Of a stretch of DNA of 42,399 bases, positions 1 to 42,399 are shown piece by piece. This stretch comes from a virus. The notes under the pieces were generated by a model. The model was not told where the DNA came from, searched no databases, and worked only from the letters and a program-made list of their open reading frames with translations. Position 1 is the first letter of the stretch, and each line of letters starts with the position of its first letter. A program made the position numbers and the translations under genes. The stretch spans positions 1 through 42,399 of IMG/VR virus record IMGVR_UViG_3300042923_000974; one strand, 5' to 3'.

Positions 1-127
1 ACTTTGGAGTAAAAGAAGATGGCGAGTTTGTAGACCCTACTGTTTTAGTTCCCAGATTAAAAAGCATTACTGGAGAAATTGATGCAGAAAAGGAAGCAGC
101 TTGGTATGACATTGAGGGAAGAATGGA
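1..127. repeat. Terminal direct repeat, left copy (circular overlap)
   Basis: These 127 bases are identical to the last 127 bases (42273-42399). The M23 peptidase frame entering the right end continues without a break when the two copies are merged. This is the sign of a circular molecule linearised at an arbitrary point, not of true terminal repeats. The unique circle is 42,272 bp. Confidence 0.95.
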
Positions 128-365
128 ACTGGCCATGGAGAACGCAAAAGAGGATATGAAGGAAGAGTTTAAAGAAATGATGTATGACTTTTTAAGAGCT
201 CTTAGAGATGTTGTTATTGATTTAGCTGACGCTTTTACCCTTATCGGTGGTGGAGCTTTCATTATTCTAGGCGCTTGGAAGCTTAAGAATGCGAATAGAT
301 GGGTGAGTATCTTGTTTGTTTCTCGAATCTTAATCAAAGCCTTACTGGGAGGTTATATAGGATGA
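1..365 (+). CDS. M23 peptidase / membrane protein, C-terminal part (continues from 41969 across the join)
   Basis: Codons run in frame from base 3 and are the continuation of the gene starting at 41969; the merged protein has 222 residues. This part begins at the end of the LytM zinc site (FGV after HLH). It then has a charged helical linker rich in Glu and Lys and two hydrophobic stretches near the C-terminus, around LADAFTLIGGGAFIILGAW and WVSILFVSRILIKALLGG. The gene ends in an ATGA overlap with the ATPase gene at 362, so the two are probably translationally coupled. An internal ATG at 123 could be mistaken for a start, but the frame is open upstream and carries catalytic-domain sequence. 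Confidence 0.9.
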   Translation, partial: FGVKEDGEFVDPTVLVPRLKSITGEIDAEKEAAWYDIEGRMELAMENAKEDMKEEFKEMMYDFLRALRDVVIDLADAFTLIGGGAFIILGAWKLKNANRWVSILFVSRILIKALLGGYIG

Positions 366-2716
366 AATTTAGCCAGGTAGTAAGTGTTATTAAGCCACAA
401 TATGTTTTCCTCAAGCTTAAACCTAACAATTCAATCCGCAATCAATCCACTCATTTCATAGCAAGAACTATCTCAACTCTATATAGAAGTGTATTTCAGT
501 CCATTGTAGCTGAGGAAAAGAAAATTATTAAATTACTAGGTAGGGAGTTTTTGATCGGTACGAAATACAATTTTCAAGTCCAGGGGAAAATCGGTTATTA
601 CATTTATATTGAGAAGAAAAAAATTGAGTTTTATTTCATCATTCCTAAGCAATACCTAAGCATCATCCAGGAGAAAATCAGTGATGTTTGGAAGAACATC
701 ACAATCGAAGAGATTACAGATTTACCTCAGTTTGGAGAAAAGGCTACAAAGTATCAATTAGTGTATGAAAAAGAGGATGCCTTGAGTTTAAAAGTGGATA
801 GAAGAGACAATGATCTACTCCAATCCAACTTAAATATCGTGGATGTATTAGAGGAAGGCGATAAAGTGGCAATTTTTTATAACTTTATGCCAGCTTCTCA
901 AGAAAGTTTTAAATACAGCTATAAAACGACATTGGAGAAAGTGAAAAAAGGCTTACCAGTTGACAGAAATAAGATGGGGTTAGCGTATCTTTTCAAATTA
1001 AGTGTGGGAATAATCGATGGTCTAGTGAAAGATGTGAGTGAAATCCTAGCAGGTGATAAGAAAAAGGAAGGTGAGACATGGCTCGAAACGATTGTCGATA
1101 GGCTTCAAGGTGGTCAGAAACAATTAAAAGAAGGTACAGAAAATAAGATTAAAAATCAAATCGTTCCTACTCAAATCGTAATTTTAAGTGAAAGTGCTAG
1201 TAAATTACGTGAGCTGAATAACAGTCGCAGTTTGGCAAATAGCTTTGATGTGATAAGTGAAGATAACAAATTAGTACCTAAAAGAATGGGCGGTAAGCTG
1301 AATTTATTTAAGTATAATTTAGGTGCTGAAGTGAACAAAGTAAGTGACCTGGAGTGTCAAAACTTTTTATCCCTAGCTGGGAGAGAGTTATTAGAAAGGC
1401 ACAACTTTATTGAAAAAGTTGAAACTCAAGAAACCGAAGTACCAGAGGACTTAAGAAAAGGCGTACTGAGGATTGGTGAAAACATTTTTAGAGGCATGAA
1501 ACAACAGGCTTATCTATCTACAGATAAAGAGTATAAACAATTAACCTTAGTGTTAATTGGTCCTACACGCGCTGGAAAGTCTACTCTTATTGGTAATCTT
1601 TCTTATGATGCCATCAAAAACGGTGAGTGTGTAGTGCTTTTCGATTTCATAAAAAATTGTGAGCTAAGCGATGAAGTAGCTGCATTGTTTCCGCCAGATA
1701 AAAGACTATTCATTGAATGTCATGATTTTAAATCGTTACAGGGTTTAGGATATAACGAAATACCTTCAAGCGCAGATCCATTCATTCGGTACGCTAATGC
1801 AAAGAAAATGACTACCCAGTTAATCACTCTGGTTGATTCAATCAATTCCGATGATACCACGTTTTCCGCACGTATGAATCGTTATATGACTAGCGCAGCT
1901 CTAACTGTTTTCCTTAGTGGAGGAAACGTAAAAGAAGTTTTTTCCGTATTACAAAATCACAACAAAAGAGCTGATTATATCAGCAAAGTTCCTTCCAGTC
2001 AGTTAGAAAACATGGAAGAGTACATTGGGTATCTTAGAGAGCTGGATGAAAAAGACAAAAAAGGTGTCATTACTGGCACTAAATTGCACCTAGTAGAGGG
2101 TATTATTAGCCGTTTAAACAGGTTGAAAGATAACCCTTATATGGAACTAATGTTGAAAAAAGGAACTGAAAATAATATTAACTTAGTAGAAGAAGTACAA
2201 AAGAATCAGCTTATTTGCATAAAGATGCCTGAAACCATGTTCTCGACAGATAATGAACGCGATGTGTATACAACCTACTGGATGACCAAAATCTATTTAG
2301 CGCTTCAAGTGAGAAGTGAAAACATTCCTGATCGGAATGACCAAAGAAAAGTAAACTTAATCATCGATGAATTATATCAAGTACAAAACACAGAACAGCT
2401 TTTAAAACAACGTTTGTCACGTATGGCTAAGTTTGGGATGAAGCCTATTATTAGCTGTCATTACTTGAATCAAATTAAACATATTCGTGATGAACTGCGC
2501 TCAGCTAATGCTAGTTATATGCTAATCAGTGGATGTGATAAAGAGAACTTCAAAGAGTTGAAAAGTGAATTATATCCATTTACCGAAGAGGATCTGTTGA
2601 AGCTTCCTCGATATCACTCTATGAATTTAATTAAGTGTAAGGACGGCTATGGAAAGTTCATTACAAAATTACCTGCTCCAGTAGACCAAATGGAGGTCAT
2701 GGCATGCGAAAACTAA
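362..2716 (+). CDS. VirD4/VirB4/HerA-like DNA-pump ATPase
   Basis: A 784-residue P-loop ATPase. Walker A is GPTRAGKST at residues 400-408. Walker B is LIIDELYQ with D669 and E670. It is followed by a segment (LSRMAKFGMKPIISCHYLNQI) typical of the sensor region of FtsK/HerA/VirD4/VirB4 motors. The first 390 residues form a separate domain with no motif I can name; residues about 200-235 are partly hydrophobic (MGLAYLFKLSVGII) but are not a convincing membrane segment. The chosen ATG overlaps the stop of the M23 gene (ATGA) and has GGAGG upstream; an in-frame start at 299 lacks a good site and would overlap more. Family knowledge: these hexamers move DNA or protein through membranes in conjugation, type IV secretion and segregation. 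Placing it in one subfamily (coupling protein, VirB4 or FtsK-like) is not possible by eye. Confidence 0.85.
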   Translation: MKFSQVVSVIKPQYVFLKLKPNNSIRNQSTHFIARTISTLYRSVFQSIVAEEKKIIKLLGREFLIGTKYNFQVQGKIGYYIYIEKKKIEFYFIIPKQYLSIIQEKISDVWKNITIEEITDLPQFGEKATKYQLVYEKEDALSLKVDRRDNDLLQSNLNIVDVLEEGDKVAIFYNFMPASQESFKYSYKTTLEKVKKGLPVDRNKMGLAYLFKLSVGIIDGLVKDVSEILAGDKKKEGETWLETIVDRLQGGQKQLKEGTENKIKNQIVPTQIVILSESASKLRELNNSRSLANSFDVISEDNKLVPKRMGGKLNLFKYNLGAEVNKVSDLECQNFLSLAGRELLERHNFIEKVETQETEVPEDLRKGVLRIGENIFRGMKQQAYLSTDKEYKQLTLVLIGPTRAGKSTLIGNLSYDAIKNGECVVLFDFIKNCELSDEVAALFPPDKRLFIECHDFKSLQGLGYNEIPSSADPFIRYANAKKMTTQLITLVDSINSDDTTFSARMNRYMTSAALTVFLSGGNVKEVFSVLQNHNKRADYISKVPSSQLENMEEYIGYLRELDEKDKKGVITGTKLHLVEGIISRLNRLKDNPYMELMLKKGTENNINLVEEVQKNQLICIKMPETMFSTDNERDVYTTYWMTKIYLALQVRSENIPDRNDQRKVNLIIDELYQVQNTEQLLKQRLSRMAKFGMKPIISCHYLNQIKHIRDELRSANASYMLISGCDKENFKELKSELYPFTEEDLLKLPRYHSMNLIKCKDGYGKFITKLPAPVDQMEVMACEN

Positions 2717-2850
2717 TCATATATCATTGTTTCTTTTGCGGATTTGATTTTGGTTTATTCAACTTCCCTATCGATGTATCACCTAGCTGTCCCTGCTGTA
2801 GAAATGAAGATGATATTTTATTCATAAGTGAAGTTAAAACTGGCTCATAG
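2704..2850 (+). CDS. Small zinc-ribbon peptide
   Basis: A 48-residue protein overlapping the end of the ATPase gene by 13 nt, with GGAGG at 2692-2696 placed 7 nt before the ATG. It has two cysteine pairs, HCFFCG (C9, C12) and CPCC (C29, C31/C32), spaced like a treble-clef or rubredoxin-type zinc knuckle. The tight overlap suggests it is made with the ATPase. It could be a small DNA- or protein-binding partner; no specific function can be given. Confidence 0.7.
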   Translation: MRKLIIYHCFFCGFDFGLFNFPIDVSPSCPCCRNEDDILFISEVKTGS

Positions 2851-2874
2851 TCGAAATAGACTACGAGCCTTTCC
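2842..2874 (+). terminator. Stem-loop after the ATPase operon
   Basis: An 11-bp stem, GGCTCATAGTC with GACTACGAGCC and one G-T wobble, has loop GAAATA. It is followed only by TTTCC, so the U-tract is short. It is probably a partial terminator or an mRNA 3' end, with read-through to the small gene at 2896. Confidence 0.5.
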
Positions 2875-2895
2875 TGGTAAAAGGAGGAATGCTAC

Positions 2896-3054
2896 ATGCG
2901 TCCAGTAGTCATCGAAATGGTAAAAGGCAAGCCTATTGTGGTCAGCTGCCCTAAGAAGATTCAGGTCATCATAAGAGAGCCTAAAAAGCGAGGGATGAAA
3001 AAGCGACTAAAAACGGCTTTTTACCACATTAAGTCCTTTTGGAGAACAGTGTAA
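2896..3054 (+). CDS. Small basic protein of unknown function
   Basis: A 52-residue, Lys/Arg-rich peptide preceded by a strong AAGGAGG (2881-2887) 8 nt before the ATG. The N-terminal half looks like beta strands (RPVVIEMVKGKPIVV); the C-terminal half is a basic helix. It is the last rightward gene before the proposed attP, so in an integrated prophage it would sit at the extreme end. I do not recognise the family. Confidence 0.65.
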   Translation: MRPVVIEMVKGKPIVVSCPKKIQVIIREPKKRGMKKRLKTAFYHIKSFWRTV

Positions 3055-3110: not shown

Positions 3111-3132
3111 AAAAAGACTTTAAAAAAAGTCT
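3111..3132 (-). terminator. Intrinsic terminator of the integrase gene
   Basis: Read on the minus strand, AGACTTT and AAAGTCT form a 7-bp stem around TTTT, followed by a T-rich tail. The integrase stop codon lies inside the stem-loop. Confidence 0.65.
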
Positions 3133-4547
3133 ATGGTATCAATGCCTATTCTCTTTTTATCCTCATAAACAACCTTCATTTCTTTAATAAACCTCTGAAC
3201 AAAATTCTTCTTTTCTTCTTTCGTAAGCTTATACCAGTTATCTCCAATGTTTTTCAAAATAGCATATAGCTCACTTTTATCTACTGGAATTTCCTCTACT
3301 GGAGCTTCTATGATTTGAGCCTTTATTTCCTCTTCTAAACTTCGTTCTTCAGACATTCTTTTATCAAAGTCTTCATCGGAAAGTTTATCGTTCGCCCAGG
3401 CATACTGCCATTTCTTTTTCCGGCTCTCTAATTTCTCAAGTTCTTTTTTCAAATCTGCCTGTTGGTCCTCATCTTTTTTCTCATTGATTTCATGCTCACC
3501 TGTTGCTGCCACTTCATCGAAAGGGAAGTCAAAGAGTTGAAGGTGTTCCACCAATGCTTTTTCAATTCTTGTTTCTGAAAAGGCTCCAGATTGAGTACAT
3601 ATGCCCGACGCTAAGTGGTGGCACCTATAGTATCGATAAACCTTTTTCTCACCTTTTGCTGACACTCGATGGCTCCCACCGCCTACCATTGATCTTCCAC
3701 AATTTCTGCATTTGATTACACCTGAGAAGATGTAGGTACTAGCAACCTGTTTAGGAGATAGCCCTCTTCTATTATCTATTGTTGTTTGTACCATTTCAAA
3801 AGATGCTTGATCAATAATAGGAGGGACTGCATTTTCTGTGAGCTCATCTCCCCAGCGAATGGTCCCAGTATAGATTGGGTTTTTTAATATTTTCATTAAA
3901 GGGTTATCAGTCCATAGATTACCTGATTTGGTTAATATGTTACGTTCGTTTAAATACTGGCAGATACGACTTGCACCTAACCCTTTAAGATAGAGATCCA
4001 CAATTAATCGGATGGTTTTAGCCTCATCTTCCTTAATGGTAAGTGTTCCTTTAGAGTGGTCAAGGTCATATCCCATAGGGCGAATATTATTTGCATACTT
4101 TCCTTGCCTTACCTTTTCAGCCATCCCCATTTTGACGCGTTCTCCTAGGTTCTCACGTTCCCACTGAGCCATAGCTGCAACCATAGTAATAAACATTCTA
4201 CCCATTGCAGTTGTCGTTTCGAATACCTCTGTAACTGATTTGAATTTACAATCATGTTTATCAAAAGTTTGAAGCATCTTATATAAATCTAGGACGGATC
4301 TTGTTAAACGGTCGAGACGATAAACGAGAACACAATCAATTTTTCCTTCTTTTATATCCGTTATCATTCTTTGTAATTCTGGTCGATTCATATCCTTTGC
4401 AGATATCCCCTCATCTACATATAAATCAACCACTTGCCAATCCTGAGCTATACAAAACGCTTTTAATCTTTGTTTTTGTGCAGAGATAGAATAGCCCTCT
4501 TTTGCTTGCTCCTCTGTAGAAACACGAATGTATATTGCAACCTTCAT
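3120..4547 (-). CDS. int: Large serine recombinase (phage integrase)
   Basis: A 475-residue site-specific recombinase. The N-terminal resolvase domain starts YIRVSTEEQ with nucleophile S10, and has the conserved YRLDRLTR (76-83) and the QWERE helix (128-132). The recombinase domain spans about 155-260. The zinc ribbon uses C280, C283, C309 and C317. A long charged coiled coil spans about 370-420. Length and domain order match integrases of Bacillus and Listeria phages. The enzyme joins attP to a host attB; excision would need a recombination directionality factor, which I cannot identify here. The gene follows the repressor gene by 16 nt on the same strand, so the two are probably co-transcribed, which would favour lysogeny. 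GAGG lies shortly before the ATG. Confidence 0.96.
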   Translation of the reverse strand: MKVAIYIRVSTEEQAKEGYSISAQKQRLKAFCIAQDWQVVDLYVDEGISAKDMNRPELQRMITDIKEGKIDCVLVYRLDRLTRSVLDLYKMLQTFDKHDCKFKSVTEVFETTTAMGRMFITMVAAMAQWERENLGERVKMGMAEKVRQGKYANNIRPMGYDLDHSKGTLTIKEDEAKTIRLIVDLYLKGLGASRICQYLNERNILTKSGNLWTDNPLMKILKNPIYTGTIRWGDELTENAVPPIIDQASFEMVQTTIDNRRGLSPKQVASTYIFSGVIKCRNCGRSMVGGGSHRVSAKGEKKVYRYYRCHHLASGICTQSGAFSETRIEKALVEHLQLFDFPFDEVAATGEHEINEKKDEDQQADLKKELEKLESRKKKWQYAWANDKLSDEDFDKRMSEERSLEEEIKAQIIEAPVEEIPVDKSELYAILKNIGDNWYKLTKEEKKNFVQRFIKEMKVVYEDKKRIGIDTIDFF

Positions 4548-32316: not shown

Positions 32317-34665
32317 ATGGGGAAATATCGCTCTCTAGGTACATGGATTAACCGTGTTTTTAGAAATGATTTGAACTCTAATTTTGATGATGTGGATCAA
32401 GATATAAAATATATACAAACCCAATTGGACCAAGTTGTCATTGAGGGTGATTCCTCTGTTGAAGCAGCTCAAGCTAGAGTGAATAAAAGTGGCACTGTTT
32501 ATGCAACTTTAAAAGAGCGCTTGGACGATGAAAATGAGAACATTACGTCATCATTGGCGGAAATGTCGTCAGAGAAAGCAGATAAAACAGAGGTTAATTC
32601 ACTTGCTACCTCTAAGGCTGAAAAGTCTTACGTTGATACCAATTTAACTGCATTAGACACAAAAATTAATAGTCAAGCGAGTGGTTCTCCAAAGGGTGTC
32701 TACGCTACGTTATCAGCGTTACAAACTGCTTTTCCTACTGGTAATACAAACACTTATGTTGTTGCCGCTGATGGATATTCGTATTATTGGAACGGCTCTA
32801 TTTGGAATCAATTGACACAATATCAAAGCACTGGATTAGCTAATAAATCTGTAACACCCGAAAAAGCTACGTTTTTTAGCGCAGAAACCAAAAATATTTA
32901 TAGTGGTGACATGTATATAAGTCAATTATTTTTAGACTATTCGTCAGCAGAAAGTAGAACAACAACAGGAATTTCAACAGGTGTAGCTTCTGTAGTCATT
33001 CCGCTTGAAGTTGGTGTGACTTATTTAATTAAGAAAAGTTCTGCGCTACGTTTTCGAGTAGCTGTTTTTGATCAATCTCCAACAGCAGCAGGTATTAATG
33101 CAGTTACAACATTGACAAATGAAATCATTGCGCCATCCGTTACAGAAGTTACGTATACAGCTCAAAGTAGTGGTTTATATATAGTTGTGTATTCGTCTAA
33201 CAATGGTACGTTTTATCCAATTGATATTTTAGTGGATTCTTACACATTATCAACAGATATTTCGGTTGATGAAGCGAGTATTAAACCAAGAAGTATTAGC
33301 GTGGAGAAAACTGATTTTCTAGTGAACGCAATTGATTTATTAGACGGCACTTATGTAAATCGGTACATTGACACCACAACTAATAAGATTGCCGACAATG
33401 CTACCACTAGATCAGTCATTGCATCTATACTTCCAAATGTGGAATATACAATTAAGACATTTGGAACTCATAACCGTTTCGTTGTGGGGTTGACCAATTC
33501 TTTATTAACTGACACAGTAATTTCTACTTTTCCTGTAAAGAAAACAACAACTGCTGGTAATGAGGAGATCACATTCACAAACAGTGGTGGATTTTCTTAT
33601 TGCATGATTTATATTTCAAACGCTTCGCATCAACCTGAAATTACGATGACAAAAGGTGCTTATCCAGTACAACCAAACGAGCAACTTTACACGTTGAATG
33701 GTAAAAAAATAGTTATGGAAAACGACCTAACTGTAAGTGTTGATGATATTAGTAAAACTATAAAAAAGTATAACGGTCATTATTGGGAACCTGAAATGCA
33801 ACCTGATGCACTTGGCGGTGTGAACAGTTTTGCGAATGTGGCATGGACGAGTGAACAGTTTATTAATAACGTATACGAACCACTTAGAGCAAAATATCCA
33901 TATTACATCACAAGAGAAAACATAGGTAAGGATGCTAGTGGACTTTATGATATGTGGATGTATATTTTCGAACCTAAGTTTTATACCCAAACTGCATTTT
34001 TACAAGCAGGAGCACACGCTTGGGAAGAAGAAGGGTATCTTGGTTTAGGTAGGTTCATGCAAATCCTTTGCGAGGAACATGAAACACATCGAGATTTAAG
34101 TTATTTACGATGGAATGTCCGTTTTGTTGTGATTCCTTTAATAAATGTATGGGGAGTTTCAGCCCAAACAGAAGGGCAAAGAACATCTAATAACATTAAC
34201 GGTGTAAACTTAAATAGAGATACAGTTAATAAATCCCAACAAGAAACATTAAATGTTATTGCTCAAATAGATCGATTTGCCGATGATATCAGCTACTTCC
34301 TAGATTTCCACACAACAGGTAGACAAACCACTTGGGGCGATTACATGTACGAATATTATAATGCTGCCCCAAATGCCCGTGTATCCCTTAGAACCATACA
34401 TTATTTAAGCGATAAGAATATTAGAGAGGGTATGAATCGAGAACCTGATTTGCATGAAGTAAGGTATCTTGACAATGATTCAAGGGTAGGGAAATGGGTA
34501 GAATATCCGTGGCATATTCATGGGATTCCAACAGCTACAGTTGAACATTCGGATATGATTTTTGATAACGCAGAACATACTTCAAAGGCTATAACGGCCA
34601 CGGTTGAGTGTTTCGGAAATCATATCATTCAACACGCTTTAAAGAAGTTTAAAACAGTCGATTAA
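32317..34665 (+). CDS. Tail fibre/spike with C-terminal M14-type metallopeptidase
   Basis: A 782-residue protein. The N-terminal about 110 residues (tail anchor and coiled coil: NSNFDDVDQDIKYIQTQLDQV) are followed by a short beta domain (YVVAADGYSYYWNGSIWNQL, about 145-165) and a long beta-rich middle. The C-terminal peptidase has zinc ligands H567 and E570 (AHAWE), H665 (DFHTTG) and catalytic E743 (TVEHSD), with NNINGVNLNRD between them: the full M14 carboxypeptidase set. M14 members in bacilli can cut gamma-D-glutamyl bonds of peptidoglycan stems or polyglutamate capsule, so a wall- or capsule-penetrating enzyme is a reasonable inference. AAGGAGG upstream. Confidence 0.88.
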   Translation: MGKYRSLGTWINRVFRNDLNSNFDDVDQDIKYIQTQLDQVVIEGDSSVEAAQARVNKSGTVYATLKERLDDENENITSSLAEMSSEKADKTEVNSLATSKAEKSYVDTNLTALDTKINSQASGSPKGVYATLSALQTAFPTGNTNTYVVAADGYSYYWNGSIWNQLTQYQSTGLANKSVTPEKATFFSAETKNIYSGDMYISQLFLDYSSAESRTTTGISTGVASVVIPLEVGVTYLIKKSSALRFRVAVFDQSPTAAGINAVTTLTNEIIAPSVTEVTYTAQSSGLYIVVYSSNNGTFYPIDILVDSYTLSTDISVDEASIKPRSISVEKTDFLVNAIDLLDGTYVNRYIDTTTNKIADNATTRSVIASILPNVEYTIKTFGTHNRFVVGLTNSLLTDTVISTFPVKKTTTAGNEEITFTNSGGFSYCMIYISNASHQPEITMTKGAYPVQPNEQLYTLNGKKIVMENDLTVSVDDISKTIKKYNGHYWEPEMQPDALGGVNSFANVAWTSEQFINNVYEPLRAKYPYYITRENIGKDASGLYDMWMYIFEPKFYTQTAFLQAGAHAWEEEGYLGLGRFMQILCEEHETHRDLSYLRWNVRFVVIPLINVWGVSAQTEGQRTSNNINGVNLNRDTVNKSQQETLNVIAQIDRFADDISYFLDFHTTGRQTTWGDYMYEYYNAAPNARVSLRTIHYLSDKNIREGMNREPDLHEVRYLDNDSRVGKWVEYPWHIHGIPTATVEHSDMIFDNAEHTSKAITATVECFGNHIIQHALKKFKTVD

Positions 34666-35904: not shown

Positions 35905-35929
35905 CATATAATATTAGGGAGTGAGGAAA

Positions 35930-36922
35930 ATGAACAATGCTGGAGAACAAATACTATCAGATGTCGTAGCGATGGTTTATGAAATGGTTCCAAATCTAGA
36001 CGTAGAAATGACTAAGAGCAAGTTTTCAAGCATTCTCTCAAAATATCATGTGAAAATTGTAGAATCTAATGAACCTCATCCAGATCTATTTGAAAAAATC
36101 GATTTGTTTATCGCATCCAAGAAACTAGAAGGATTAAGTCCAGGCACATTATATAACTACAGACTAGATTTAAACAAATTTGCTAATAAAGTGAAAAAGA
36201 AAGCTCAGGACATTAACTCAGCCGATATAAGAGTGTACATGGGCGAGTTTTCACATTTAAAAATGAGTTCTTTAGGTAGAAAATTAACGGTATTTAAAAG
36301 CTTCTTTGCCTGGCTCACATCTGAGGAAATCATTCATCGTGATCCAACAGCCAAACTAAAGCCACCTAGGTTAGAGAAAAGACTTCCTAAAGCTTTGAGT
36401 ATTGAAGAACTCGAAATGCTGAGAGAATCATGTGAGACAGTTAGACAGAGAGCTTTCATCGAAGTGCTATATGCGACAGGGTGTCGGTTGTCAGAGGTAC
36501 AAGCTTTAAACCTTAATGATATTAATTACCAGACTATGAGTTGCAGAGTTGTAGGAAAGGGGAATAAAGAAAGAGAAGTTTATTTTTCTTTTAAAGCTCT
36601 GTATCATTTAAAGAAATATTTAAAGTCACGTACTGATGAAAATGAAGCTCTGTTGGTATCTGTAAGAAAACCTCATGGAAGATTATCAAAAAGAGGCATT
36701 CAACGAGAAATCGCGGCTATTGCTAAGCTTGCAGGTTTAGAGAAGAAGGTAAGCCCACACGTCATGAGACACACTTTCGCTACCCTTACCTTAAACAACG
36801 GAGCTGAGTTGGTAGCAGTTCAAGAACTACTTGGGCATACATCACCAGAAACCACATTGAGATATGCCCGTATCACTGAAGAGCGCAAGCGTGAACAGCA
36901 TAAGAAATTCTTAGTTCAGTAG
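35930..36922 (+). CDS. XerC/D-like tyrosine recombinase in the tail module
   Basis: A 330-residue tyrosine recombinase. The N-terminal 50 residues are an extra helical part. The SAM-like core-binding domain spans about 50-135. The catalytic domain has the full set R186 (GCRLSE), K210 (VGKGNK), H277 and R280 (PHVMRH), H303 (LLGHTS) and Y312 (LRYARI), so it should be active. ATG 35930 follows AGGGAG by 7 nt. The genome already has a serine integrase, so this enzyme probably does something else: resolving multimers of the circular form, or shuffling the neighbouring fibre genes. Similar recombinases occur near lysis or fibre genes in other Bacillales phages. Confidence 0.92.
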   Translation: MNNAGEQILSDVVAMVYEMVPNLDVEMTKSKFSSILSKYHVKIVESNEPHPDLFEKIDLFIASKKLEGLSPGTLYNYRLDLNKFANKVKKKAQDINSADIRVYMGEFSHLKMSSLGRKLTVFKSFFAWLTSEEIIHRDPTAKLKPPRLEKRLPKALSIEELEMLRESCETVRQRAFIEVLYATGCRLSEVQALNLNDINYQTMSCRVVGKGNKEREVYFSFKALYHLKKYLKSRTDENEALLVSVRKPHGRLSKRGIQREIAAIAKLAGLEKKVSPHVMRHTFATLTLNNGAELVAVQELLGHTSPETTLRYARITEERKREQHKKFLVQ

Positions 36923-41069: not shown

Positions 41070-41197
41070 AAATTTATTTTTCCTTTATTGTTAGTGGACA
41101 CGCATTTTTTTAGGTGTATGCCCATAAGATGTATTACAAAGGTCGCACCACTGATATACGGTATGACAGAGGTACTACCGTATGACCGATGTAATAC
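41070..41197. promoter_or_regulatory. Repeat-rich control region upstream of the RHH gene
   Basis: Contains GTATTAC (41131-41137) and its inverse GTAATAC (41191-41197), GTATGAC twice (41161-41167, 41180-41186), and the inverted pair TACGGTA/TACCGTA around 41157-41183. AAATTTATTTTTC (41070-41082) and GACACGCATTTTTT (41097-41110) recur downstream of the RHH gene, the second inverted. Ribbon-helix-helix proteins bind such short repeats, so operators or a centromere-like site are likely. Confidence 0.6.
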
Positions 41198-41217
41198 GAA
41201 AAGGAGGACCCCCAAAA

Positions 41218-41439
41218 ATGCGAAAAGTTCAGCCTGTCTCTTTTAGTCTTTCGGATCCATTCGAAACTGCGCTTTTTAACCACGCTCAAAGTAATGGTGC
41301 TTTTTCAAAATATATTAAACGCTTAATTCAACGTGATATGGAGCGCAGGACACCAGTCGTACCAACAAAAAAAGCGCCTGACCAGCCAAATGTAATACAT
41401 GGCGGAAAGAACGCTTTTAATGGTTTTAAATTAGAGTAG
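41218..41439 (+). CDS. Ribbon-helix-helix DNA-binding protein
   Basis: A 73-residue protein. The strand VQPVSFSLSD and helices FETALFNHAQSNG and FSKYIKRLIQRDMERR form an RHH domain like those of plasmid and phage CopG/ParR-type proteins. A basic tail with GGKNAFNGF follows. ATG 41218 follows AAAGGAGG; the upstream ATG at 41182 lies in the repeat region. It is probably an autoregulator of the accessory operon; a partition role is conceivable, but no partition ATPase of ParA or ParM type is present. Confidence 0.8.
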   Translation: MRKVQPVSFSLSDPFETALFNHAQSNGAFSKYIKRLIQRDMERRTPVVPTKKAPDQPNVIHGGKNAFNGFKLE

Positions 41440-41491
41440 ACGGTGGCTAGGTAGCCGACGCGCTTTACGTCAGCTTATGCAGGGGTTTTTG

Positions 41492-41534
41492 AAAAAATGC
41501 GTGTCTAGGTGGTATTACATTAAATTTATTTTTC
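41492..41534. promoter_or_regulatory. Second repeat cluster, before the pilin-like gene
   Basis: AAAAAATGCGTGTC (41492-41505) is the inverse of 41097-41110. GTATTAC (41512-41518) and AAATTTATTTTTC (41522-41534, direct copy of 41070-41082) follow. A single GTAATAC also lies in the RHH gene end (41392-41398). The copies suggest that the same regulator controls the downstream membrane-protein operon. Confidence 0.55.
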
Positions 41535-41549
41535 TGGAGGTATGTCTAA

Positions 41550-41963
41550 ATGAGAAAAACGGAATCCATGACCATTAGTGAATTTTTAAGAAAAGAGCCT
41601 GAATCGTTTTCTACAAAAGTTAAGAAGCATTTAGAAAAGTACGGAATCGTTTATAGAATTGTAGGTGCTACGGTTGTGATTTATTTTACTGGAGGCTTTG
41701 ATTTTGCTTTTGCTGCAGGTGGCGGATATACGGATGGCCTTATTGATAAAGAAGCGCGAATTATTTACAACGATTTAACCGATATAGGGAGATGGTTAAT
41801 CGTAGGAAGAGGCGGATGGGAAATTATCACCAAAGTGATCAGTCAGGATATTGAAGGAGTTAAAAAGAATTTCATTGGATATTTAGTCGCCTATGTTCTA
41901 TTGATGGCTTTCCCTCACTTAATGGATAAGGTTGATACTATTTTTGACCGATTTGGGGCGTGA
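41550..41963 (+). CDS. Small membrane protein with VirB2/TrbC pilin-like layout
   Basis: A 137-residue protein. A charged N-terminus (1-32) is followed by a hydrophobic segment (34-55, VYRIVGATVVIYFTGGF) ending in AFA-AGGG, a likely signal-peptidase site after A55. The rest (about 80 residues) has two hydrophobic helices (about 78-97 and 108-125) separated by a short charged loop (SQDIEGVKKN). A long leader, an A-x-A site and a two-helix mature protein are the layout of type IV secretion pilins. No sequence motif proves it; a holin- or channel-like protein is the alternative. GGAGGT upstream; its stop is 5 nt before the M23 gene. Confidence 0.6.
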   Translation: MRKTESMTISEFLRKEPESFSTKVKKHLEKYGIVYRIVGATVVIYFTGGFDFAFAAGGGYTDGLIDKEARIIYNDLTDIGRWLIVGRGGWEIITKVISQDIEGVKKNFIGYLVAYVLLMAFPHLMDKVDTIFDRFGA

Positions 41964-41968
41964 GGATT

Positions 41969-42399
41969 ATGAAATTTAGAGTAAGCAGCGCTTATGGTGC
42001 GTTGGAGGAAGTACGGGAGGGGAAGCACACTGGAGTTGATATAGCTTTACCAGAAGGGACGGAGCTAAGAAGTATTGTAGAGGGGTTTGTTACCAATGTA
42101 TATGATGGCTCAGGGAATATCGGTAAAGGTGTGAAAATTATGGGTAACGATGACAGAGAATACATCTATGGTCACATGGATGAGGTAGACGTCTCTGTTG
42201 GTCAAAAAGTGAATTTTGGAGATATGTTAGGAGAAAGTGGAAACACGGGGAACTCAACTGGACCACATTTGCACTTTGGAGTAAAAGAAGATGGCGAGTT
42301 TGTAGACCCTACTGTTTTAGTTCCCAGATTAAAAAGCATTACTGGAGAAATTGATGCAGAAAAGGAAGCAGCTTGGTATGACATTGAGGGAAGAATGGA
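41969..42399 (+). CDS. M23 peptidase / membrane protein, N-terminal part (continues at 128-365)
   Basis: The first 143 codons of a 222-residue protein that crosses the circular join. LytM-type zinc endopeptidase residues are all present: H20 and D24 (HTGVD), H69 (YIYGHM), and H100 and H102 (GPHLHFG). The enzyme would cut peptide cross-links of the wall. There is no N-terminal signal peptide, whereas the C-terminal part (1-365 in this window) has two hydrophobic segments that could hold it in the membrane. GAGG is only 3 nt before the ATG, so translation is probably coupled to the pilin-like gene. Type IV secretion systems of Gram-positive bacteria need such a wall hydrolase. A phage entry or release role is an alternative. 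Confidence 0.9.
   Translation, partial: MKFRVSSAYGALEEVREGKHTGVDIALPEGTELRSIVEGFVTNVYDGSGNIGKGVKIMGNDDREYIYGHMDEVDVSVGQKVNFGDMLGESGNTGNSTGPHLHFGVKEDGEFVDPTVLVPRLKSITGEIDAEKEAAWYDIEGRM
42273..42399. repeat. Terminal direct repeat, right copy (circular overlap)
   Basis: Identical to bases 1-127. It should be counted once when the molecule is closed. Confidence 0.95.

Follow-up and report, generated by a model that had tools for sequence, protein, structure and literature searches.

A candidate minimal type IV secretion-like DNA translocation module encoded by a temperate-type phage and conserved among its relatives

We analyzed the complete 42,399-nt IMG/VR virus record IMGVR_UViG_3300042923_000974 (positions 1-42,399, hereafter the window) and found that genes for a ribbon-helix-helix (RHH)-type protein, a pilin-like protein, a protein combining an M23 peptidase domain with two transmembrane (TM) helices, and a large motor ATPase form one operon-like block spanning the circular join. 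We give about an even chance to the reading that this block is a minimal, envelope-spanning DNA translocation module derived from a type IV secretion system (T4SS). A first-pass annotation, made from the sequence alone, had likewise proposed a minimal T4SS-like or DNA-translocating module, and this proposal is supported by the linkage of the genes in relatives, by TrbC/VirB2 and T4SS_pilin matches of sister pilins, and by motor profiles. From these observations we infer DNA translocation itself, together with the assembly of the products, DNA as their cargo, the direction of transport and the benefit to the phage. A 127-nt exact terminal repeat (42273-42399 = 1-127) closes the record into a circle of 42,272 bp, which shows that the genome is complete.

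All genes of the block lie on the + strand. The RHH-type gene (41182..41439, probable start 41218; ParR/CopG-like, PHROG 8966 3e-15) is followed by the gene for the VirB2-like pilin candidate (41550..41963), to which a signal peptide, an AFA/A site and a two-helix hairpin were assigned from an AlphaFold2 model, the family alignment and a profile link to sister pilins. A 5-nt gap separates the end of this open reading frame (ORF) from the ATG of the M23 gene at 41969, which runs through the join to a stop at 365 and encodes 222 aa. Its first part is 41969..42399, continuing at window position 128 (Peptidase_M23 1.5e-25, PHROG 7767 1e-45), and its second part (1..365) comprises the end of the M23 domain, a linker and a C-terminal two-TM segment. 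The ATPase gene (362..2716; 784 aa; PHROG 5156 3e-86) begins at an ATG that overlaps the M23 stop codon (ATGA); an earlier in-frame ATG exists at 299, and alignments favour the start at 362. The first-pass annotation had placed the pilin-like gene at 41550, the M23 gene at 41969 to 365, the ATPase gene at 362 and, after it, a zinc-ribbon peptide, all of which we confirmed, the last as an ORF at 2704; its grouping of the pilin-like, M23 and ATPase genes also stands, with the correction that the RHH gene belongs to the block as well. The ORFs are under purifying constraint, with a proportion of synonymous differences (pS) of 0.78 and of nonsynonymous differences (pN) of 0.17 for the ATPase gene compared with that of a 75%-identical relative.

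Related loci were drawn from phage records, IMG/VR and genomes using iterated profiles, followed by a final tally (survey loci carry L numbers). Clade A contributed 51 loci with 1.2 kb or more of upstream DNA, some of them near-identical copies. In 49 of these, the ATPase gene is preceded by a pilin-like gene, whose small product combines a signal peptide and an AxA site with a two-helix hairpin, and in 48 a second gene, for a two-TM protein, comes after the pilin-like gene. As for the misses, manual inspection located both genes in L045, L044 has further small TM proteins, and the L051 contig is short, its ATPase being truncated. Clade B, which includes TP-84, D6E, 035JT001 and BpsM-61, matches the pilin-B profile at 15 of 23 loci, and the six inspected of the other eight (L059, L060, L061, L063, L064 and L066) all have, at this position, a gene whose small product bears a signal peptide and two TM helices. 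The gene order is as in the window in TP-84, D6E, GBK2, 000TH010, Ray17, Stahl and BboS-125. Rather than standing alone in other phages, an outcome that would have spoken against the first-pass proposal, the ATPase homologues at the surveyed loci are constantly linked to pilin-like and two-TM genes. The constant linkage proposed for the pilin-like, M23 and ATPase genes therefore holds for the first and last of these and for the two-TM part, while the M23 domain itself is optional.

The window pilin is a VirB2-like candidate by an indirect route, namely a profile link and a matching architecture. AlphaFold2 predicted a helix at residues 20-46, a disordered stretch at 48-61 and a helical hairpin at 64-97/101-134. 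Throughout the pilin-like family, the N-terminal region has the motif K..T/S..SI.(E/D/K)F, the signal is hydrophobic and includes an AxA site, and the mature part consists of two helices; in the form K..(T/S)xSIxxF the motif is common to pilins A and B, and the pilin A profile aligns to the pilin B profile with P=2.7e-5. Pfam searches of the clade-B (sister) pilins returned T4SS_pilin for 10/11 and TrbC/VirB2 for 6/11 (best 6e-7), with such pilins encoded by TP-84, D6E, BpsM-61 and 035JT001, and TrbC matches were also found in pilins of further subfamilies. T4SS_pilin matches occur in 25 of 149 sampled Bacillota genomes. When VirB2 identity was sought for the window pilin itself, Pfam, hhalign and Foldseek all gave non-significant results, so we rejected a direct assignment and base the VirB2 claim on the sister pilins. 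According to a survey, the Gram-positive T4SS classes are without virB2 pilin genes (PMC12102498), so that finding a pilin paired with a motor in phages whose hosts are Gram-positive is unexpected, the T4SS_pilin matches in the sampled Bacillota genomes notwithstanding.

The second subunit that is conserved is the two-TM protein; its fusion to an M23 domain is optional. Its tail occurs as a free-standing protein of 76-119 aa in relatives that do not have M23. The peptidase domain is N-terminal at most loci and absent at ~20; in L039, L043, L046, L048 and L049 it lies on the C-terminal side of the TM part, a swap relative to the window. Since the domain changes ends, the sequences suggest that it was joined to the two-TM protein at least twice. 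The loop between the two TM helices is positively charged, so the M23 domain is probably located outside the membrane. The two-TM protein occupies the VirB3/PrgI position ahead of the motor gene; an identity as VirB3/PrgI is unproven, the argument being position. Its derivation as a pilin paralogue was also considered and set aside, with a weak profile match to pilin B (P=4e-4) and none to pilin A.

By profile searches and structure prediction, the ATPase is a T4SS-type motor of the HerA/FtsK superfamily that we assign to neither VirB4 nor VirD4. The Walker A (GPTRAGKS, residues 400-407) and Walker B (LIIDE, D669/E670) motifs are intact, as had been noted at first pass: G405, K406, D669 and E670 are invariant and G400 is nearly so in 41 relatives. 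The TrwB_AAD_bind match of the window ATPase (1.5e-4) is barely above the cut-off, and the same domain was found in 18/41 family members. In hhalign profile-profile comparisons with Bacillota T4SS ATPases, the motor domain matched VirD4 with P=1.6e-18 and VirB4 with P=3.9e-12. The full-length 784-aa model (predicted local distance difference test score 86.5) has a soluble N-domain of ~360 aa followed by a HerA/FtsK-type motor, and Foldseek searches with it ranked R388 VirB4 (E=5e-13) first, then TrwB (E=2e-11), HerA (E=3e-10) and Thermoanaerobacter VirB4. Unlike VirD4/type IV coupling proteins with their membrane anchor, the ATPases that we examined at related loci have no N-terminal TM segment. 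Only two plasmid homologues were found, both weak and partial.

The HerA match bears on an alternative in which the ATPase is an intracellular HerA/FtsK-type motor for replication or repair, its linkage to membrane-protein genes being unrelated and its likeness to VirB proteins generic to the superfamily. This match is strong, and ERF/RecT or replication genes adjoin the module in several phages. We nevertheless regard such a motor as quite improbable given the near-constant link to a signal-peptide-bearing pilin-like protein across ATPases that have diverged to ~21% identity, and given the TrbC and T4SS_pilin matches of the sister pilins. The first-pass annotation had also allowed that the N-domain might belong to an unrelated family such as a replication protein; profile and structure searches returned no replication-protein match for the ATPase, and its best full-length PDB matches are VirB4 proteins.

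Several results weigh against a T4SS-derived translocation module. The window pilin has no significant match to VirB2 Pfam models (T4SS_pilin E=0.22) or, by hhalign, to Bacillota T4SS pilins, and its model has no Foldseek match. Profile comparison of the two-TM protein gave no match to PrgI/VirB3, and the N-domain of the ATPase matches neither VirB4 nor VirD4 in the profile-profile comparisons. The alignment with R388 VirB4 covers almost the whole ATPase, with low TM-scores (~0.33) for the full-length matches. Among the window proteins scanned with Pfam, none matched a relaxase, VirD4, VirB6 or VirB8 family and none was a second T4SS ATPase, in agreement with the first-pass remark that a second secretion ATPase and other conjugation genes are missing. 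Because VirB6 and relaxase were looked for in the window and not found, the block is, as read from its genes, a phage-borne reduced T4SS-like module rather than a full T4SS. The lack of a relaxase, also remarked on at first pass, applies to the window, in which Replic_Relax was not found; SPO1 and phage G have Replic_Relax genes near their modules. Replic_Relax is present in only 3/54 module phages, arguing that a conjugation-type single-stranded DNA substrate is not general.

On the translocation reading, the VirB2-like pilin would be exported, processed and oligomerized in the membrane, possibly as a short filament or pore. The two-TM protein with its external M23 domain would form the base and open the peptidoglycan, the role of VirB1 in T4SS, and a cytoplasmic hexameric ATPase would dock on both membrane proteins and pump DNA, most probably that of the phage, through the envelope. 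The RHH protein, joined in many relatives by a ParM-like actin, may bind and position DNA or control the operon. We favour DNA as the cargo mainly because the neighbours, ParM-like actins and Replic_Relax proteins, handle DNA, and slightly favour export or cell-to-cell transfer over import. Secretion of protein effectors instead of DNA is conceivable, since relaxase-less T4SS relatives can be co-opted, as in Patescibacteria, whose T4SS are mostly without relaxase (PMC12102498). We consider it very unlikely here, as the surveyed loci contain no constant candidate effector gene with the module and the constant neighbours are DNA-binding or DNA-segregating.

An RHH-type gene lies upstream in about half of the clade-A loci and most clade-B loci. 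In the window, its likely start is preceded by a AAAGGAGGA-type ribosome binding site, and a repeat search against shuffled sequences identified, around the gene (41097..41535), a perfect 14-nt inverted repeat GACACGCATTTTTT (41097-41110 / 41492-41505), a common 13-nt direct repeat and GTATTACA motifs. A repeat of this length was reached in 0/100 shuffles. The flanking repeats are possible RHH binding sites, laid out as if one regulator bound the promoters of both the RHH gene and the pilin operon. We did not retain them as a conserved feature, as they are strong in the window alone and inconsistent in relatives.

Among 50,697 phage records, members of the ATPase family were found in phages infecting Bacillus, Geobacillus, Lysinibacillus, Alicyclobacillus, Brevibacillus and Terrisporobacter and in a single phage of Microcystis. 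The latter (MaeS, MT362618.1), matched in two pieces at 25% identity, is the sole non-Bacillota phage match; it may be a genuine outlier, or its host may have been assigned wrongly. Matches in genomes add Neobacillus, Sutcliffiella, Sporosarcina, Paenibacillus and Paraclostridium; the ATPase was found in 5/398 sampled Bacillota genomes (~1%), the centre genome included. An ALP_N (ParM-like) actin is encoded by 15/54 module phages, in 13 of them within ~3 kb upstream of the module by coordinate comparison. In Alicyclobacillus phage MMB025 (L120), the ParM-like gene looks split, with a 134-aa open frame and one in-frame TGA inside the match.

These data led us to weigh a partition machine of spore-formers, in which RHH and ParM proteins position phage DNA and the channel and motor pump it through the division or forespore septum, so that daughter cells or spores retain the phage genome. 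The actin adjoining the module in the 13 phages fits this idea, as do the known hosts, nearly all from genera that include endospore formers: phages of Staphylococcus (342 records), Enterococcus (69) and Listeria (54) have homologues of the SPO1-type portal, and none is among the ATPase matches. The confinement of the module to genera with spore-formers is suggestive, with phage ancestry as a confounder; the host pattern may stem from phage phylogeny, and the Microcystis phage matches too. A spore-former link through Spo0A was uninformative, as Spo0A is present in 345/398 of the sampled genomes. With the actin also missing from the window and most relatives, we judge a partition machine to be decidedly unlikely.

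Judged from its genes, the window genome is of temperate siphophage type, with a serine integrase (3120-4547; Resolvase/Recombinase), an S24 repressor, an SPP1-type portal, tail genes, a holin and an amidase. The first-pass annotation had connected the module with temperate phages and segregation of an episomal form. The phage type was borne out, but the module is also present in SPO1, TP-84 and phage G, and we do not favour episomal segregation as its reason, given that virulent phages carry it and that circular permutation can explain the circle. A Terminase_3 terminase was detected by the Pfam scan, so circular permutation by itself could account for the closed circle.

In this prophage-type genome, the module sits between the lysis genes and the integrase, a common site of accessory genes. 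This location, along with the presence of the module in both virulent and temperate phages and an M23 domain that acts on the wall, would suit superinfection exclusion or envelope guarding, whereby a T4SS-type complex blocks or expels incoming phage or plasmid DNA or remodels the wall. The linked DNA-segregation genes and Replic_Relax suit cargo handling better, and a motor with a pilin is an elaborate means of exclusion. PADLOC returned only generic partial matches of the motor domain to mad8 (2.7e-7) and Leo proteins and no specific defence component. We therefore regard exclusion as unlikely.

Two small ORFs follow the ATPase gene on the + strand. The translation of the first (2704..2850), which overlaps the ATPase 3´ end, is a 48-aa CxxC zinc-ribbon-like peptide with no family match and inconsistent conservation in relatives. 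The second (2896..3054) encodes a small basic protein of 52 aa, with a homologous ORF 3´ of the ATPase gene in L010; that it is part of the module is less certain. Elsewhere in the window, a tyrosine recombinase gene (35921-36922; Phage_integrase 4e-38) lies within the tail/late region despite the serine integrase, and a related gene (746-1738) precedes the lysis genes in L014. A tail-region protein (32317-34665) has a zinc carboxypeptidase (Peptidase_M14) domain.

The kinds of component are known, and individual genes already bear annotations such as "VirD4 component-like" in SP8, "TrwB-like" in PJN02 and "VirB-like" for gp155 of phage G. We found no description of a conserved phage pilin/motor module in the open-access literature, nor, in the open-access papers searched, of its range, which reaches from temperate siphophages as far as SPO1 and phage G, of M23 as an optional part or of the linkage to actin genes. 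Its recurrence in diverse phages of spore-formers suggests a so far undescribed means by which phages move DNA over the cell envelope. If DNA is translocated, phage genomes would have a second route that does not depend on virions, and a T4SS reduction like that of Ced would extend to viruses. A bolder and rather doubtful possibility is that many tailed phages of endospore-forming Bacillota own a miniature conjugation-like machine delivering phage DNA from lysogens or infected cells to neighbouring cells or the forespore without virions. SPO1 in B. subtilis 168 is a classic model in which the module is directly testable, and PHROG 5156 and SPO1 gp27.3-27.9 gain a starting hypothesis.

Among known families and systems, PHROG 5156 (unknown function) and PHROG 7767 (metallo-endopeptidase) are direct matches of the ATPase and M23 protein, respectively, and carry no mechanism. 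Conjugative T4SS (VirB/D4; in R388, TrwK/VirB4 and TrwB/VirD4) share with the window a HerA/FtsK-superfamily motor, a VirB2-type pilin (in the window a candidate), a wall hydrolase and the succession of a small membrane protein and then a motor gene. In contrast to these systems, the window module is borne by a tailed phage and is without VirB6, VirB8, a core complex, a relaxase and separate VirB4 and VirD4 ATPases. The archaeal Ced/Ted DNA importers (PMC9905601) resemble the proposed module as reduced T4SS derivatives in which a VirB2-like pilin is combined with a VirB4/HerA-like ATPase, and Ted has a ParA-like gene nearby, comparable to ParM in module phages; they differ in being host genes with a VirB6-like CedA/TedA channel, whereas no polytopic channel protein was found in the window.

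Close comparisons also come from SPO1 and Bacillus phage G, whose ATPases gp27.4 and gp156, respectively, are members of the window ATPase family. In the SPO1 cluster gp27.3-gp27.9, gp27.4 is preceded by small TM proteins and, upstream, by a ParM-like actin (gp27.9; ALP_N 2e-27) and the small gene gp27.8, which takes the ParR position; unlike the window, the cluster has no M23 and has a Replic_Relax gene (gp27.3; 2.9e-12) directly downstream of the ATPase gene. In phage G (L117, 85-93 kb), gp156 is close to a pilin, gp150, whose T4SS_pilin match (3.7e-6) is above the curated cut-off. Between them, in order, are gp153, a TrbL_4/VirB6-like protein (1.8e-11) of a kind found only in phage G among module phages; gp154, PrgI-like by our reading of its sequence, with no Pfam match; and gp155, a true VirB4 (1.6e-15). 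With a Replic_Relax gene ~1 kb before gp149, phage G carries a fuller system around the same family of motor.

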